Source of the DNA: a virus
Reading direction: 5' to 3' (one strand)
Virus record (IMG/VR): IMGVR_UViG_3300042553_000279
Span: 1-22,533 of that record
Length of the DNA: 22,533 nucleotides
Shown piece by piece: positions 7,292 through 18,861 of this stretch (within the stretch, counting starts at the first letter, position 1; each line of letters starts with the position of its first letter). A program made the translations under genes and the position numbers. Under the pieces are notes generated by a model, which saw only the letters and a program-made list of their open reading frames with translations, ran no database searches and was not told where the DNA came from.

Positions 7292-8356
7292 ATGCAGCTC
7301 AAGGCGACCGACGAACAAATCCTGCAAGCCCTAAAGAACGCCAAGGGGATTCGCGCAGCGGCTGCAAATGCGTTAGGCATCAACGAACGCACCCTGATGG
7401 CTCGCATGAACAAGATGCGGGGAAAGGGCTATTCCGTACCAGAGTCCACCTACCGGCAACCCATCGCAGCCATTGACCACGGCGACTACGAGTTCACGCC
7501 CCTCCCGGACGATGACGTTCCCATTGAGGAATTGATTGAGCAGCGCAAGCGCAAGTTTCTGCACAAGCAGGAGCATGAGGAAGCGTCCAAACTCATTCCC
7601 ATCAAGGTCAAGATACCCGGCGCCGTAGGCATCCTGCACTTTGGTGACCCGCACGTAGACGACGACGGCTGCGACATCGCCGCCATTGAGCGCCATACGG
7701 CCCTCGTCAACGCCACGGAAGGGCTGTTTGCTGCCAACGTGGGCGATACCACCAATGCATGGGTGGGTCGTTTAGCAAGGCTTTACGCAGATCAAGCCAC
7801 TTCTGCAGCTCAAGCATGGCGGTTGGCTGAATGGTTCATTAAAAGATGCAAGTGGCTGTACATGATCGCCGGAAACCATGACTTATGGGCAGGGGCTGGC
7901 GACCCATTGAAATGGATTGCTCGCCAACAAGAAGCTCTTTACAAGTCGTCCGAAGCGCGGATCGCCCTTAAATTCCCGAATGGCCGTGAAGTGCGAATAA
8001 ATGCTAGGCATGACCACGCAGGATCAAGCATCTGGAACCCCGCGCATGGCCCTATGAAAGCCGCCATGCTAGGAACCCGAGATCATATTTACGTTGCGGG
8101 TCATAAACATGAAAGCGCTTATAGCGTTCTAAAAGACCCTAGCGATGGAATCACAATGCATGCCATCAAAGTGGCTAGCTACAAAGTTTACGATCGTTAC
8201 GCAAAGGAAAAGGGGTTTAGAGATAATGCGCTATCCCCTTGCGCGGTAACAATTATTGACCCAGACCTGCCGCCAGATCATCCGGACATGGTAAAAGTGT
8301 TTTGGGAACCAGAAGAAGGCGCAGAGTTTTTGGCTTGGAAACGCAAAAAACGTTAA
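7292..8356 (+). CDS. HTH-metallophosphoesterase (DNA repair exonuclease-like)
   Basis: A 354-residue protein. I choose the ATG at 7292 with GGAG five bases upstream; a GTG at 7286 overlapping the previous stop is possible. Residues about 5-45 form a Fis-like helix-turn-helix (IRAAAANALGINERTLMARM). The phosphoesterase core follows with all motifs: GDPH at 118-121, GDTTN at 151-155, GNHD at 194-197, ARHDHAG near 240 and GHKH at 270-273. These bind two metal ions and cleave phosphodiester or phosphomonoester bonds; phage homologues are often called DNA repair exonucleases. The 3' half has lower GC than the 5' half. It converges on the HNH gene with a 4-base stop-stop overlap. Confidence 0.85.
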   Translation: MQLKATDEQILQALKNAKGIRAAAANALGINERTLMARMNKMRGKGYSVPESTYRQPIAAIDHGDYEFTPLPDDDVPIEELIEQRKRKFLHKQEHEEASKLIPIKVKIPGAVGILHFGDPHVDDDGCDIAAIERHTALVNATEGLFAANVGDTTNAWVGRLARLYADQATSAAQAWRLAEWFIKRCKWLYMIAGNHDLWAGAGDPLKWIARQQEALYKSSEARIALKFPNGREVRINARHDHAGSSIWNPAHGPMKAAMLGTRDHIYVAGHKHESAYSVLKDPSDGITMHAIKVASYKVYDRYAKEKGFRDNALSPCAVTIIDPDLPPDHPDMVKVFWEPEEGAEFLAWKRKKR

Positions 8357-8961
8357 GGCATGTCAGGCCAAACGCGATTGTTTTTTGAGTAATTTTCTGA
8401 GGCGGGAATGATTTGCAAGTTGGCTTCGCAATGCAACCCACAAACGCGCTTAGAAATTAACGGAACGATATGGTCAACGTGATGGCCTGGCTTGGCTTGG
8501 CACTCTTGATATATCGCCGCAATCGCTTTTGCGTCTGCCCATAGCGGCACCGCATTCAGCATCGCTGCTCGGCGTTTGCTTGATAAAGCCGCTACAGCAG
8601 CAGGGTTGTTTTTCTTCCACGCCGATTTCCAATAGCGAGCTTTTTCCGGGTTTGCAGCAGCCCATGCCCTGCTTATTTCGTTAAGTTTTTCGCGGCCAAT
8701 TGAAGCAACGCGAGCTTTGTGCGCTACGCCTCGGTTACGCTGGTTCCAGCGCTTTGACGCGGCTCTTGTTTTGTCGCGATTTTCGCTAGCCCATTTGGAA
8801 TAACGAGCCAAGTAACGGTCTTTGTTGTCGCGCTGCCATTTTGCAGCCGCAGCAGTATTGCAGGGCTTGCAACTTGATTTGTGACCGTCCTTGGATTGTG
8901 AAAACCGATGAAATTCGGTTAGCGGCTTAGTTTGGTGGCACTTGGCGCATTTCTTTTCCAT
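8353..8961 (-). CDS. HNH endonuclease, free-standing homing type
   Basis: A 202-residue protein. I choose the ATG at 8961 because the zinc-knuckle N-terminus (MEKKCAKCHQTKPLTEFH) starts there; a GTG at 8976 would add five residues. CxxC pairs at Cys5/Cys8 and Cys31/Cys34 form a likely zinc site, a long basic Trp/Asn-rich repeat region follows (NPEKARYWKSAWKK), and the HNH core HHVDHIVPL starts at residue 160 with Asn181 and a downstream NYSKNNR. Such proteins cut DNA at phage sites and spread themselves. It sits at the convergent end of two operons, overlapping both neighbours, as expected for an inserted selfish gene. Confidence 0.88.
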   Translation of the reverse strand: MEKKCAKCHQTKPLTEFHRFSQSKDGHKSSCKPCNTAAAAKWQRDNKDRYLARYSKWASENRDKTRAASKRWNQRNRGVAHKARVASIGREKLNEISRAWAAANPEKARYWKSAWKKNNPAAVAALSSKRRAAMLNAVPLWADAKAIAAIYQECQAKPGHHVDHIVPLISKRVCGLHCEANLQIIPASENYSKNNRVWPDMP

Positions 8962-9160
8962 TGTCCAATTGTACACACTTTTCGGCGCAAGCCTGTCTGA
9001 ACAGCTCCCGCTCTCGTTTAGTCCGAAGTGTGCAAAACCGCTGATGAAGGCGGTTCACGATGCTCCACCGAGACTTCCCGTCAATCTCCTCGTTGAGGGC
9101 CGTAAGTACCTCGTCCTCGGTCATGGAGGAGATGGCGTCGTTCAGTTCTTTCCAGTTCAT
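8927..9160 (-). CDS. Small helical protein of unknown function
   Basis: A 77-residue protein starting in an ATGA overlap with the VRR-NUC gene. The core (ISSMTEDEVLTALNEEIDGK, then IVNRLHQRFCTLRTKRE) resembles small phage proteins of the DUF7206 kind that follow replication or recombination genes; this is a pattern match from memory. The last residues (about DNGKEMRQVPPN) overlap the start of the HNH gene by 35 bases and may be a tail acquired when that gene was inserted. Function unknown. Confidence 0.7.
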   Translation of the reverse strand: MNWKELNDAISSMTEDEVLTALNEEIDGKSRWSIVNRLHQRFCTLRTKRERELFRQACAEKCVQLDNGKEMRQVPPN

Positions 9161-10731: not shown

Positions 10732-10994
10732 CAGAACGGCGGCAGTTCGTCGTTCAGGTCTGCCGTCCCCCAATTGTCCTCGGTGACCTTCTGTGCGGGC
10801 TTGGGCGCTTGCCCTTCCTTCTTCTGGAAGGATATGGACAGATACCCCATGCCGCCCTTGGACTGCTTCTTCCACGCGGACAGGCGAAACTCCACCCCGT
10901 CCACGTTGCAGTCGCCGGTGTAATCAGGACGGGCAGGATTGCCCTTCTTGTCGTTGGCGAACAATGCGCCCCTGTTAGTCGGATCAAATGGCAT
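10731..10994 (-). CDS. Small putative ssDNA-binding-like protein with SSB-type acidic tail
   Basis: An 87-residue protein with GGAGA before the ATG. The N-terminal 60 residues look like a small beta-barrel domain (GDCNVDGVEFRLSAWKK, GGMGYLSISFQKKEG) reminiscent of DUF736-like proteins. After a Pro/Lys linker it ends in DLNDELPPF, close to the acidic DDDIPF-type tip by which bacterial SSB recruits exonucleases, RecO, PriA and other partners. A role as a minimal SSB or an SSB decoy is inferred from the tail and from its place between YqaJ exonuclease and other recombination genes. Confidence 0.65.
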   Translation of the reverse strand: MPFDPTNRGALFANDKKGNPARPDYTGDCNVDGVEFRLSAWKKQSKGGMGYLSISFQKKEGQAPKPAQKVTEDNWGTADLNDELPPF

Positions 10995-11598
10995 TTTTCA
11001 TCTCCTCAAGTGCTTTGACTTTCACATCCAATTCGCCAAGGAACTTCTCGACCTCGGCTTCCAACATCGCAATGCACTCGTCGTCGCGTGGTATGCGGAC
11101 AATGAGCAACTGCAAACCTTCTGGCATACGCGGGTCGTAGGACACCCAATCTGCCCACGCCGCTCCGGTACAGGCTATCTGCCATTGCATCTGGTAGTAG
11201 TACTTCTGCGGCGCCTCCCGAGTCATCAGGTACTCGATATGCTGGGCCGTCTGCGGACACTTGATCTCAAGACATCCCCCGCCTACCAGTCCGTCAGGGC
11301 TTGCCCCTGTCATCGGGATACGCGGGTGCGGGATAAACCCCACCTCGGTCACGAGTTCGCCGGTACGGGCCGAGTACGCAGCCCGTGCGGCGGGTTCTTG
11401 GTCAATCCCCCATTGCATCGCCGCATTGGTAAACGACTCTGCCCGTGTGCCGGTGAGGCGCTCACAGACCAGTTCAGCCATGTAGTTAGCTCGACTCGCC
11501 CCGTACCCGGTCTTGGTCTTGGCGACGACATCGGCAATGCGACTGGCCGTGACCTTGCCGCATCGGGCGGCAAACCATTCCTCGGTTTTCTGTTCCAT
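10984..11598 (-). CDS. YqaJ-type (lambda exonuclease-like) 5'-3' DNA exonuclease
   Basis: A 204-residue nuclease of the YqaJ/lambda-exonuclease family. It starts with TEEWFAARCGKVTASRIADV, the usual N-terminal signature. The PD-(D/E)xK site can be read as Glu68 (GIDQEPAAR), Asp102 (GASPDGLV), Glu111 and Lys113 (CLEIKCP), with a helical end (QMQWQIACTG). The enzyme degrades one strand of duplex ends to give single-stranded DNA on which the ERF protein acts. Its ATG shares one base with the upstream stop (TAATG), and its end overlaps the SSB-tail gene by 11 bases. Confidence 0.93.
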   Translation of the reverse strand: MEQKTEEWFAARCGKVTASRIADVVAKTKTGYGASRANYMAELVCERLTGTRAESFTNAAMQWGIDQEPAARAAYSARTGELVTEVGFIPHPRIPMTGASPDGLVGGGCLEIKCPQTAQHIEYLMTREAPQKYYYQMQWQIACTGAAWADWVSYDPRMPEGLQLLIVRIPRDDECIAMLEAEVEKFLGELDVKVKALEEMKNAI

Positions 11599-11822: not shown

Positions 11823-12172
11823 TTGCCCTCCGCTTGGTCAAGCCATTCAATGGCTCGCATTGCAGCAAATGCTGCGTCCTGCTCTGCCCGCTTGATGGTT
11901 TGCTGTGCGCGCAGGACAGCACGCGCCCACTCGGTCGCATCCGTTGCGGCTAACGCATCGGCACGGCATTTGGCCCATGACGCAGCACTCGCAAGGCCAT
12001 TGCCCTTCATAAACCGCTGCCATTCTCCAGCCTGATGGTTCGCCGCCGCTCCCGCTAGGATTGCATTGGTTACGTCGCGTTCAGACCACATTGCCCGCCA
12101 TTCCTTGCCGTATCCGCGTGCGTCGGCAAAGTCCTGATGCGCCTCCAGCCGCGCCCACATTCTGTCAATCAT
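11819..12172 (-). CDS. Unknown helical protein between ERF and the exonuclease
   Basis: A 117-residue protein starting in an ATGA overlap with the ERF gene. It is rich in Ala, Trp and Arg and predicted helical (MIDRMWARLEAHQDFADARG, WARAVLRAQQTIKRAEQDA). I do not recognise a domain. The overlap means its translation is probably coupled to ERF. Confidence 0.75.
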   Translation of the reverse strand: MIDRMWARLEAHQDFADARGYGKEWRAMWSERDVTNAILAGAAANHQAGEWQRFMKGNGLASAASWAKCRADALAATDATEWARAVLRAQQTIKRAEQDAAFAAMRAIEWLDQAEGK

Positions 12173-12708
12173 GACAGCACCTTTTTGCGGGCCGAGAACT
12201 GGTCAACGTGGGCCTCGCGTACCTCGGGGGTCAACGACTTAAACAGCGCCGTCAGGTCAGCCTGTGTCGCTGCTGCGGCGATCTTCGCCAGCACCTCGGC
12301 ATCCTGCTTGGGCTTGTTACGGCCCTGTGCGGCTTCGGCGTCGTCGTCGATCTGGGCAAGTCCAACCATGGCTGCGAGGGCATAACGGCGAGCGTAGGTG
12401 ATGCCCGACCCTTGGCCCTGCGGACTGTCGTCCTTGGTCAAGATGGGACAGTACGACCGCACCCACTCGCCCGACGAGTGCGCCAAGATCGTGACCAACA
12501 TGGCACGATGCTCGGTCGGCTCAATCGTCTGTATGACGGCCAGCCCGTTGTCCGTGAGAGGCTTGCGGCAAGCGTCCCAACACGCCGCAAGGTCGGCGTA
12601 TTTGCTTTTGAAGAACGGGTTAGCCGAGTCCTTAAGTGCGCCCGTGATGGACGCCTGTGCCTTTGAAAGTGCCGCTGCGAGAGCGGCGATGGATTCTGAC
12701 TGGTTCAC
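12169..12708 (-). CDS. erf: ERF-family single-strand annealing protein
   Basis: A 179-residue recombinase of the ERF family, which anneals complementary single strands and promotes phage recombination and genome circularisation. I place the start at GTG 12708 (reads M-N-Q-S-E-S) because AGGAG lies seven bases upstream; an in-frame start at 12729 would ignore that site. Family blocks visible are NPFFKSKYADLAACWDACRK (30-49), AHSSGEWVRS (76-85) and QGQGSGITYARRYALAAMVG (97-116). The C-terminal 50 residues are a variable tail. Pairing with a YqaJ nuclease in one operon is the usual exonuclease-annealase arrangement. Confidence 0.92.
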   Translation of the reverse strand: MNQSESIAALAAALSKAQASITGALKDSANPFFKSKYADLAACWDACRKPLTDNGLAVIQTIEPTEHRAMLVTILAHSSGEWVRSYCPILTKDDSPQGQGSGITYARRYALAAMVGLAQIDDDAEAAQGRNKPKQDAEVLAKIAAAATQADLTALFKSLTPEVREAHVDQFSARKKVLS

Positions 12709-12709
12709 G

Positions 12710-13102
12710 TTATATCTCCTTACAGACATAGTTCCTTTTCATCTTTCTGGCTTCCGGCTTCGTCAGCACCCGATTCCAGCGCAACATGACGTTGTATTTC
12801 GTCATTTCCAGCATTTTGTTGCCGTAACGCAATCTGAAGGTTTCGTTGGCTTTCGGGTCGTCAAAGATGGCAGTCAACATCGCGTTGACGAAGTAAACGG
12901 TGCGGTCACGCTGCTCCTTTGTGCTTTGATCAAGCCACTTGAACGCTTGTTTGTTGAAGTCAGGATTCAAGAACCCAAGCAAGACGTAGAGCGCAACAAA
13001 AATGTCGCCGTCAATGTCCCAATCGCCAGTCAGCAGTTCGTGGTAAAAATCCAACTTCAACTGCTTTTTCCGCCGCTTTTTTGTGGGCTTTTTGTCTTTC
13101 AC
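12710..13102 (-). CDS. Unknown protein with basic N-terminus
   Basis: A 130-residue protein with a GTG start overlapping the preceding stop (GTGA) and a GGGAGG Shine-Dalgarno six bases away. It begins with a strongly basic MKDKKPTKKRRKKQLKLDFY, followed by an acidic patch (DWDIDGDIF), a hydrophobic segment (VALYVLLGFLNPDF) and a basic, aromatic C-terminal half. Composition suggests nucleic-acid binding. I do not recognise a family. It is the second gene after the leftward promoter, so it should be made early. Confidence 0.75.
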   Translation of the reverse strand: MKDKKPTKKRRKKQLKLDFYHELLTGDWDIDGDIFVALYVLLGFLNPDFNKQAFKWLDQSTKEQRDRTVYFVNAMLTAIFDDPKANETFRLRYGNKMLEMTKYNVMLRWNRVLTKPEARKMKRNYVCKEI

Positions 13103-15818: not shown

Positions 15819-17132
15819 ATGACCAATCCACAAGACATTTCGCTGCTTCAGCCAGCCGACTGGTTCAAACGATTCGCCTACATCGTTTCGGATGATTCGT
15901 TTTTTGACGTTGAGACGCAAAGGGAATACAGCCGCAAAGCGTTCAATGCCATCTTCCGGGGCGTCCCCTGTTTCAGCGTCCACAACAAGCAGCGGCGCAT
16001 CGAGGCTGCGACGAGCTTTGACGAGAACAGGGCGGCTCTAGGGTCGAGGGTGCTAGAGGGCCTGACTTTTGCGCCGGGTGAAGGCATCTTGTGCGAGAAG
16101 TCCGACGGGGGCGTCTACGCGAACCGCTGGCGCGATGCTCGCCCTAGGGGAGTCCCTGGCGACGTTACGCCGTGGCTCGCTCACGCAGAACGGATGCTGC
16201 CTGACCCTATCGAACGTAACCATGTCCTAACCGTGCTGGCGTATAAAGTCCAGCACCCCAATAAAAAAATAAATCACGCCATCCTGCATTGCGGTCTGCC
16301 GGGGGCGGGAAAGGACAGCTTGTACGCTCCCTTTCTCTGGTCGATTGGGGGGCAGAGCCTGACCAATGTCACTACCGCAAGGGCTGACGATGTGATCGGC
16401 CAATGGGGCTACTCGCTGGAATCCGAAGTGTTGGTCCTTAACGAACTGCGGCAACCGAACGTATTCGACCGGAGCGCCTTGGAAAATCAACTCAAACCGT
16501 TAATTGCGGCCCCGCCAGAGTTCCTGTTGGTCAATCGAAAGGGCTTGCATCCTTACCCTGCCCTAAATCGAATGCTTGTCTTGGCGTTTAGCAACGAACG
16601 GATGCCCATTGCCTTGTCGAGTGAGGATCGACGATGGTTTGTGGTCTGGTCTACCGCCCCCCGGATGTCCGATGAGGAAGGCGAGCGCCTTTGGGCCTGG
16701 TATCACTCTGGTGGGTTTGCCGCCGTGGCCGCCTATCTCCGGCAAAGGGACGTATCGGCCTTTAACCCTGGCGCAACGCCGCCCATGACCCCAGCCAAGG
16801 CGAGCCTGATTGACCTGTCTCAAAGTCCGTCAGAGGTGCATTTTTTGCGGATGATTCAAAGCCGCGAGGGGCCGTTTACGCGTGGCGTGGTCGCAAGCCC
16901 TTGGGTGGACGTGATCCAAGCCTGCGGAGGCGCGACCAAATCGGCTAACAGAGAGATGCGTGAGACGCTATATCAGGCGTTTTCAACAGCCGGATGGATA
17001 GACAGGGGCCGATGCACCAGCCGCCACCATATGACGCCACGGGCGATCTGGTGCGCCCCGGAGCATGCCAGCAAGACGGCCACCGAATTGAGACTGATGG
17101 TGGAGGAACCCGTCCTAGCCCTCGTGAAATAA
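15819..17132 (+). CDS. SF3-like replicative helicase / primase-helicase NTPase (DUF5906-like)
   Basis: A 437-residue protein with the ATPase core of superfamily 3 helicases. Walker A is GLPGAGKDS (159-167, Lys165), Walker B is VLVLNE (204-209), and the sensor region is LAFSNERMPIAL (255-266) followed by DRRWFVVW with Arg271/Arg272. The N-terminal 120 residues may be a remnant of a primase or DNA-binding part; the C-terminal 100 residues look like a winged helix. It should unwind DNA at the phage origin. The ATG has no well-placed Shine-Dalgarno (AGGA is 13 bases away); a GATAAT hexamer ends six bases before it. Confidence 0.85.
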   Translation: MTNPQDISLLQPADWFKRFAYIVSDDSFFDVETQREYSRKAFNAIFRGVPCFSVHNKQRRIEAATSFDENRAALGSRVLEGLTFAPGEGILCEKSDGGVYANRWRDARPRGVPGDVTPWLAHAERMLPDPIERNHVLTVLAYKVQHPNKKINHAILHCGLPGAGKDSLYAPFLWSIGGQSLTNVTTARADDVIGQWGYSLESEVLVLNELRQPNVFDRSALENQLKPLIAAPPEFLLVNRKGLHPYPALNRMLVLAFSNERMPIALSSEDRRWFVVWSTAPRMSDEEGERLWAWYHSGGFAAVAAYLRQRDVSAFNPGATPPMTPAKASLIDLSQSPSEVHFLRMIQSREGPFTRGVVASPWVDVIQACGGATKSANREMRETLYQAFSTAGWIDRGRCTSRHHMTPRAIWCAPEHASKTATELRLMVEEPVLALVK

Positions 17133-17154
17133 AAACCCCGGCACTAGGCCGGGG
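17131..17154 (-). terminator. Rho-independent terminator of the leftward small-gene cluster
   Basis: A perfect 7-base-pair stem (CCCCGGC 17136-17142, GCCGGGG 17148-17154) with a 5-base loop. The A-rich bases to its left (including the helicase stop codon) form the U-tract in leftward transcripts. It lies six bases beyond the last possible gene of the cluster. Confidence 0.75.
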
Positions 17155-17159
17155 TGGAG

Positions 17160-17696: not shown

Positions 17697-18074
17697 TCAG
17701 CGGTACCAGTACGTGGCGCCGTCAATCTCTACGGGCGTGTAGTCAATACGCACGTTTCGGGCTGTCGCTTCCCAGTCAATTTCGACCCATGACGGCAAGT
17801 CACGCGGAATCGTGCCGCAGTCTTCCAGCAAGTCGCGTGCGTAGGTGGTGAAATAGCAGCAGCGAACGAGCGTCACGGGGTACCAATCGCCGCGCCACTC
17901 CTCATCGCCGCCATACCCTTTCAATTCGTGCAAAATACGGGTCAGCATGTTCCATTCAGCGATGCGCTCGCCCTCGCCAATGGCGTCAACTTCTGCCTCC
18001 ATCTCTTCAACGCGGGCGATGATGTCGCGCACGTCAATGAAGTCGGCAGACAGGTCAAATGTGGTCGTTTGCAT
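17697..18074 (-). CDS. Unknown phage/plasmid accessory protein
   Basis: A 125-residue acidic protein with its own ribosome-binding region (AAAGGGTGA). It has ADFIDVRDIIARVEEMEAEV, then LHELKGYGGDEEWRGDWYP and the ending IDWEATARNVRIDYTPVEID followed by GATYWYR. Proteins with this C-terminal pattern are common in phages and plasmids of proteobacteria; some neighbours are antirestriction genes, but I cannot assign that role here. Confidence 0.75.
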   Translation of the reverse strand: MQTTTFDLSADFIDVRDIIARVEEMEAEVDAIGEGERIAEWNMLTRILHELKGYGGDEEWRGDWYPVTLVRCCYFTTYARDLLEDCGTIPRDLPSWVEIDWEATARNVRIDYTPVEIDGATYWYR

Positions 18075-18153: not shown

Positions 18154-18810
18154 TTAGGCGGCAGCAGAGACGCCAGGATAGGCGCTCCGGAACCATTCAA
18201 GCGACATTGTGACGGCACGTGCATTGTCCGCAGCATCGTGCGTCAATCGCATGGGCATGACCAGAACCATCGCCCCCGGCTCACCATCCGTGAATACAGC
18301 ACAATCGTTCCCGGCAGGATGCACCAACACTCCGGCTTTCTTGGGGTCTCGATTGCGGTATATCGCAAGCGCTTTTGCGGCGTCGGCCAGATACTGGCCG
18401 TTATAGGCGGCAGGGGTTGCAGACTGCACGACCTGCGGAATGATGCGGCGGTAATCCGGGAAAATGCCTTCCAAAGCCGGGAAGGTAAACTTCGAACCAT
18501 CCTGCAATTCAGCGGTAATCCAGACTTTATTGTCAGTTTTTGTGATGCCGAAGGATACGCTACAGGACACAATGTTGCGCCCCGTACCGCATGCCTTGAC
18601 GATACGCTCCGCATCAGCATTGGACACGAGGAAAGAATCCATATCGGCCGGCGCGTCGACGTCACCGATAAAGAGCCGGTGACCGTCAGTCGCCACGATG
18701 CGACCAATACGACAATCAAGGTAGACGCCACAAAGGTAGTAGCGAATATCCTTGTCTGCGGAATGCGTCAAAGCAGCGCGGAGAGCAGAGACTGAAACTG
18801 TAATGTTCAT
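18154..18810 (-). CDS. Two-domain beta sliding clamp homologue (DnaN-like)
   Basis: A 218-residue protein related to domains II and III of the bacterial DNA polymerase III beta clamp. It has DIRYYLCGVYLD (21-32), RIVATDGHRL (37-46), FPDYRRIIP (117-125) and VMPMRL (184-189), matching E. coli beta motifs DVRYYLNG, VATDGHRLA, FPDYRRVLP and the C-terminal VVMPMRL. Domain I is absent, domain III is about 50 residues shorter, and 29 residues follow the usual end. The peptide-binding cleft residues are kept. Bacterial clamps are dimers of three domains; two domains per subunit would need a trimer, as in T4 gp45 and PCNA. It has an AGGTGA ribosome-binding site and its own leader. Confidence 0.82.
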   Translation of the reverse strand: MNITVSVSALRAALTHSADKDIRYYLCGVYLDCRIGRIVATDGHRLFIGDVDAPADMDSFLVSNADAERIVKACGTGRNIVSCSVSFGITKTDNKVWITAELQDGSKFTFPALEGIFPDYRRIIPQVVQSATPAAYNGQYLADAAKALAIYRNRDPKKAGVLVHPAGNDCAVFTDGEPGAMVLVMPMRLTHDAADNARAVTMSLEWFRSAYPGVSAAA

Positions 18811-18861
18811 GAGTTCACCTATTAAGTAGAGTTATCGGACGTTCAAAAGAGTACTTGGCGG

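Follow-up and report, generated by a model that had tools for sequence, protein, structure and literature searches.

The DNA analysed here, called the window below, is an entire virus record of 22,533 bases (IMGVR_UViG_3300042553_000279), which has no match among phages in a nucleotide search with its full sequence. Between its terminase and primase genes lies a minus-strand group of small genes, one of which encodes a 218-residue protein that resembles part of DnaN, the bacterial beta sliding clamp. The features in and around this gene are as follows.

17135-17155, minus strand: hairpin resembling an intrinsic terminator, at the end of the minus-strand island (a consensus match; the total number of such sites is not above shuffle expectation)
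17697-18074, minus strand: ArdA-like antirestriction gene, the next gene downstream on the same strand (PF07275, E = 1.4e-4, short of the cut-off)
18154-18810, minus strand: ring-less DnaN-like protein of 218 residues, comprising DnaN domain II, the C-terminal half of domain III and a tail
18157-18243, minus strand: C-terminal tail, residues 190-218, which varies in the family and is missing in Dhillonvirus-like members
18244-18435, minus strand: residues 126-189, forming the third beta-alpha-beta-beta-beta unit, which corresponds to E. coli DnaN ~315-366 and has the VMPMRL cleft strand at its end (AlphaFold, hhalign)
18816-18821, minus strand: Shine-Dalgarno-like AGGTGA just upstream of the ATG (read directly from the sequence)

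The coordinates assigned to the gene in a sequence-only reading of this DNA are correct; the 218-residue open reading frame lies on the minus strand, and the plus-strand translation of the interval is unrelated to it. The reading frame is genuine and under strong purifying selection: relatives that share 93-94% amino-acid identity with the protein differ from it by 53-65 synonymous versus 19 nonsynonymous changes, giving a dN/dS of ~0.07-0.09. The ArdA-like gene downstream also matches phrog_36653, an anti-restriction family (E = 9e-4), and phrog_25535 (E = 1e-39). Elsewhere in the window, minus-strand genes at 10984-11598 and 12169-12729 encode a phage recombination pair, consisting of a YqaJ-type exonuclease (PF09588) and an Erf-family annealing protein (PF04404), and a plus-strand gene at 15819-17132 encodes a DUF5906-containing primase/helicase-like protein. 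The product of the minus-strand gene at 8353-8976, with its cysteine-rich N-terminus and HHVDHIVPL motif, resembles an HNH endonuclease by eye. No match to DNA polymerase A was found in the window record.

The similarity to DnaN that had been read from the sequence is borne out far above chance by profile, PDB and shuffle tests. The protein belongs to PHROG 3007, whose profile it matches over its full length (E = 2.6e-34, residues 2-192 on positions 2-189 of 190), and it matches solved beta clamps in the PDB at E = 7e-7. When the window protein and its two near-identical relatives are left out of the family HMM, the window protein still scores 166.5 bits, while the top score among 500 shuffles is 4.8. 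Matches to the general DnaN models are more distant: TIGR00663 gives E = 6.4e-9 with 35.2 bits, below its equivalog cut-off of 137.65, and PF02767 (domain II) gives E = 0.0014, under the curated cut-off, although the latter matches 49 of 49 family members at E up to 1, with a best value of 6e-15. Domain I is missing, as the same reading had stated. No match to PF00712 occurs in the window protein or elsewhere in the 21 records comprising the window and the records of 20 relatives, and a second gene supplying domain I is therefore rejected. A scan of bacterial genomes gave 25 relatives at no more than 34% identity, several of them apparently cellular DnaN, and hence no basis for naming a host.

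The retained part of the clamp was initially described as domains II and III. That description holds for domain II, but profiles, models and spacing agree that domain III is reduced to its C-terminal half. Profile matches, the AlphaFold models of two family members and their structural alignment all give an architecture of DnaN domain II (E. coli ~126-255) followed by this half domain (~315-366). Domain II occupies residues 1 to ~125, the half domain III residues ~127-189 and a low-confidence helical tail residues 190-218; E. coli DnaN residues ~256-314 have no counterpart. The FPD motif and MPMR are separated by 59-72 residues (median 66) across 48 family members versus 119 in E. coli DnaN, and the family profile falls on E. 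coli DnaN in two pieces, 137-282, the end of which is weak, and 315-365. An early profile comparison with a small alignment likewise extended into the N-terminal half of domain III. The two half-domain units of domain III are alike, and a global hhalign test tells them apart, with the third unit scoring 26.3 over 55 columns against the C-terminal half versus 3.7 against the N-terminal half. In the homologue from Salmonella phage SeSz-2, PF02768 is matched at profile positions 68-121 of 121 only.

The AlphaFold model of the window protein (mean pLDDT 85.6, pTM 0.82) contains three beta-alpha-beta-beta-beta units, the third without its first strand formed, followed by a C-terminal helix of low confidence. 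Structural alignment places residues 1-189 on E. coli beta 126-366, with a Z of 16.6 and 172 residues superposed at an rmsd of 2.3. The model of a tail-less relative of 177 residues, which ends at MPMRL, covers an equal E. coli span with Z ~12.

In E. coli beta, the first half of domain II joins with the second half of domain III to form the cleft that receives partner proteins, and exactly these parts are retained here. Alignment to E. coli beta confirms the residue equivalences proposed for this cleft, both in domain II (L26 for L155, T41 for T172, H44/R45/L46 for H175/R176/L177, P118 for P242 and I123 for V247) and in domain III (L183 for V360 and M185-L189 for M362-L366). The cleft is the most conserved surface of the family: with the search-motif columns excluded, its columns have a mean entropy of 0.94 versus 2.42 for other positions, and none of 200,000 random draws was as low.

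Closure of the E. coli ring depends on Ile78 and Phe106 in domain I, which pack against Ile272 and Leu273 of domain III, with charged residues including Arg103, Glu298 and Glu304 contributing (PMC11139829). The equivalents of all of these residues fall in segments that are absent from the family, and neither ring interface exists in the window protein because it has neither domain I nor the N-terminal half of domain III. The PCNA/gp45-like trimer that had been suggested is accordingly not supported, and a canonical trimer of this kind is unlikely. Its proposed subunit would contribute only one and a half domains, without the ring-closing residues, while the usual trimer requires two full domains per subunit. 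The subunits of the trimeric clamps T4 gp45 and PCNA are similar to the window protein in length and share the clamp fold, but each contains two full domains, as opposed to one and a half (PMC9690074). A hydrophobic face in need of cover is to be expected on the half domain III; self-association or a partner is therefore likely, and a new type of ring is conceivable. A further comparison is with E. coli beta*, a two-domain, UV-inducible product of DnaN that reportedly forms a trimer. Both proteins lack domain I, but beta* keeps a complete domain III, half of which is missing here.

The family that the window protein joins was known but is uncharacterised. Other members of PHROG 3007, among them Bcep781 gp15, Eta_0010 of Serratia phage Eta and proteins annotated 'DNA polymerase III beta subunit' in a Dhillonvirus and a Skatevirus, are alike in size, motif order and architecture, with identities to the window protein of 25-37% apart from the two near-identical relatives. 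A tblastn search found 257 phage records, 180 of them at 80% coverage or more and mostly at ~24-35% identity. The family is thus found in hundreds of phages of enterobacteria and other hosts, under names that are often misleading. In full-text literature searches we found no account of a ring-less phage clamp, and none that mentions the absent half domain or assigns the family a function; as far as the literature was searched, the half-domain architecture and its consequence for ring closure are undescribed, although a survey of viral replicases may contain an earlier account.

In many phages the gene is part of an accessory island on the counter strand. In all 26 cases compared, the gene and the terminase are on different strands, and in all 17 the gene also runs counter to the primase/helicase cluster. 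In Bcep781 it is the lone counter-strand gene among the head genes, and in the Dhillonvirus, where it was noted as a possible moron, it likewise lies on the strand opposite the head genes. Among the records of the 20 relatives, which are mostly contigs (those of Bcep781, Eta, the Dhillonvirus and SeSz-2 being complete genomes), PolA is encoded in 8, the family occurring with or without it, and Pol III alpha, PolB and DNA_pol3_delta2 in none. A simple pattern for the clamp-binding motif, which misses unusual motifs, found no instance in the eight PolA proteins or in the listed window genes. A ParB-like gene precedes the short clamp gene in Serratia phage Eta (L008), Salmonella phage SeSz-2 (L011) and a third record (L079), and in Eta and L079 a large helicase gene follows it, making a recurrent trio. 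Because the commonest named neighbours are ParB-like proteins and helicases, at few loci only, we rejected an antirestriction island as the general rule.

We give about an even chance to the reading that the protein is a ring-less decoy or adaptor for host clamp-binding motifs and not a clamp that encircles DNA. A soluble protein of this kind is favoured because the site at which the motifs dock has been kept while the parts that make the ring have been lost, and the suggestion in the sequence-only reading of a monomer that titrates host proteins would fit the predicted anatomy better than its trimer. Family members bear quite different names in the databases: some are called 'DNA polymerase III beta subunit', some 'beta clamp' and some 'RusA-like Holliday junction resolvase'. 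The resolvase label is borne by the best PHROG match and by many RefSeq features, and is attached to DnaN-like proteins in, for example, NC_004333.2 and NC_054643.1. Yet the fold is that of a clamp by structural alignment, and at E up to 1 the RusA family of Pfam is found in 0 of 49 members while PF02767 is found in 49 of 49, so we reject a resolvase, to which we attach practically no probability. The name seems to have arisen as an error in PHROG 3007 and to have propagated to RefSeq records, where it needs correction. Bcep781 gp15 itself is described in its record as 'DNA Pol III b subunit fragment', and the separate Rus gene of that phage is gp22.

A true sliding clamp, assembled from at least three small subunits through a non-standard interface into a ring that tethers a polymerase, either host Pol III or one of the phage, to phage DNA, is a more serious alternative, although we consider it unlikely. 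It would account for the intact domain II and cleft and for the conserved RYY loop (whose columns were part of the search motif), and several depositors chose the name 'beta clamp'. Strong conservation of the cleft, which we have read as the mark of a decoy or adaptor, would be expected equally of a real clamp, and the helicase and ParB-like neighbours in some phages, like the helicase or single-strand-binding protein genes beside some relatives, suit a role in replication. Set against this, both known ring-closing surfaces are absent, most relatives lack PolA, and neither Pol III alpha nor the DNA_pol3_delta2 clamp loader is present in any of the 20. Moreover, the full-length DnaN-like phage clamps KL1 gp28 (386 residues) and phiAxp-1 orf63 (346 residues), both larger than the short form, are encoded next to a DNA polymerase gene (gp27/28 and orf62/63, respectively), which the short form mostly is not. 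Every clamp domain is a pseudo-twofold pair of one beta-alpha-beta-beta-beta unit, and two half-domain III units could in principle pack into a composite domain, yielding a curved homodimer with two clefts that joins two partners. The open face predicted for the half domain, which in the 177-residue members has no tail to cover it, speaks for such an arrangement, but that cover might come from the C-terminal helix in the window protein, and we regard the homodimer as distinctly unlikely. Less probable still is an anti-defence protein whose clamp fold blocks a host defence protein from docking on the clamp. The downstream neighbour in the window is ArdA-like, and the Skatevirus gene sits in an island with an anti-restriction gene; however, antirestriction is absent from the commonest named families among 81 neighbours of relatives, PADLOC gave no match for the clamp fragment or its neighbours, and we know of no defence protein that docks on the clamp in this way.

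As a decoy or adaptor, the protein would act as a ring-less derivative of the bacterial beta clamp that keeps the docking cleft without either ring-closing surface. Candidate host proteins that it might bind are the clamp-loader subunit delta, Pol III alpha, repair polymerases, Hda and MutS/MutL; these could either be drawn off the host clamp, or one of them could be passed to the DNA metabolism of the phage. A monomeric E. coli beta carrying Ile272Ala/Leu273Ala binds delta ~50 times tighter than the dimer does and cannot support processive synthesis (PMC11139829). It is possible, though doubtful, that phages excised the docking cleft of DnaN as a soluble decoy to take over host replication, most likely by trapping the host clamp loader through delta, or a repair or regulatory partner such as Hda. 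Among clamp-related phage proteins, Adephagia gp35 is larger (402 residues) and was among the most toxic gene products tested, which its authors link to interference with host replication (PMC11373665); Twort Gp168 also acts against the host clamp system but is unrelated and plugs the DNA channel of the clamp. Phage clamps are usually taken to be processivity factors, while PHROG 3007 keeps the docking site without the ring. Were its members decoys, the partners of the host clamp would be a common target of phages, and the family would offer a natural soluble competitor of the clamp cleft, itself a drug target.

The tails of the family differ in sequence. In the family alignment, 29 of 41 tailed members have an aromatic motif, P-A/G/S-W/F or Y-x-G-F/L-N, after MPMR, and this motif is possibly a plug over the open face of the half domain. 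In its place, the tail of the window protein has LEWFRSAYPG.
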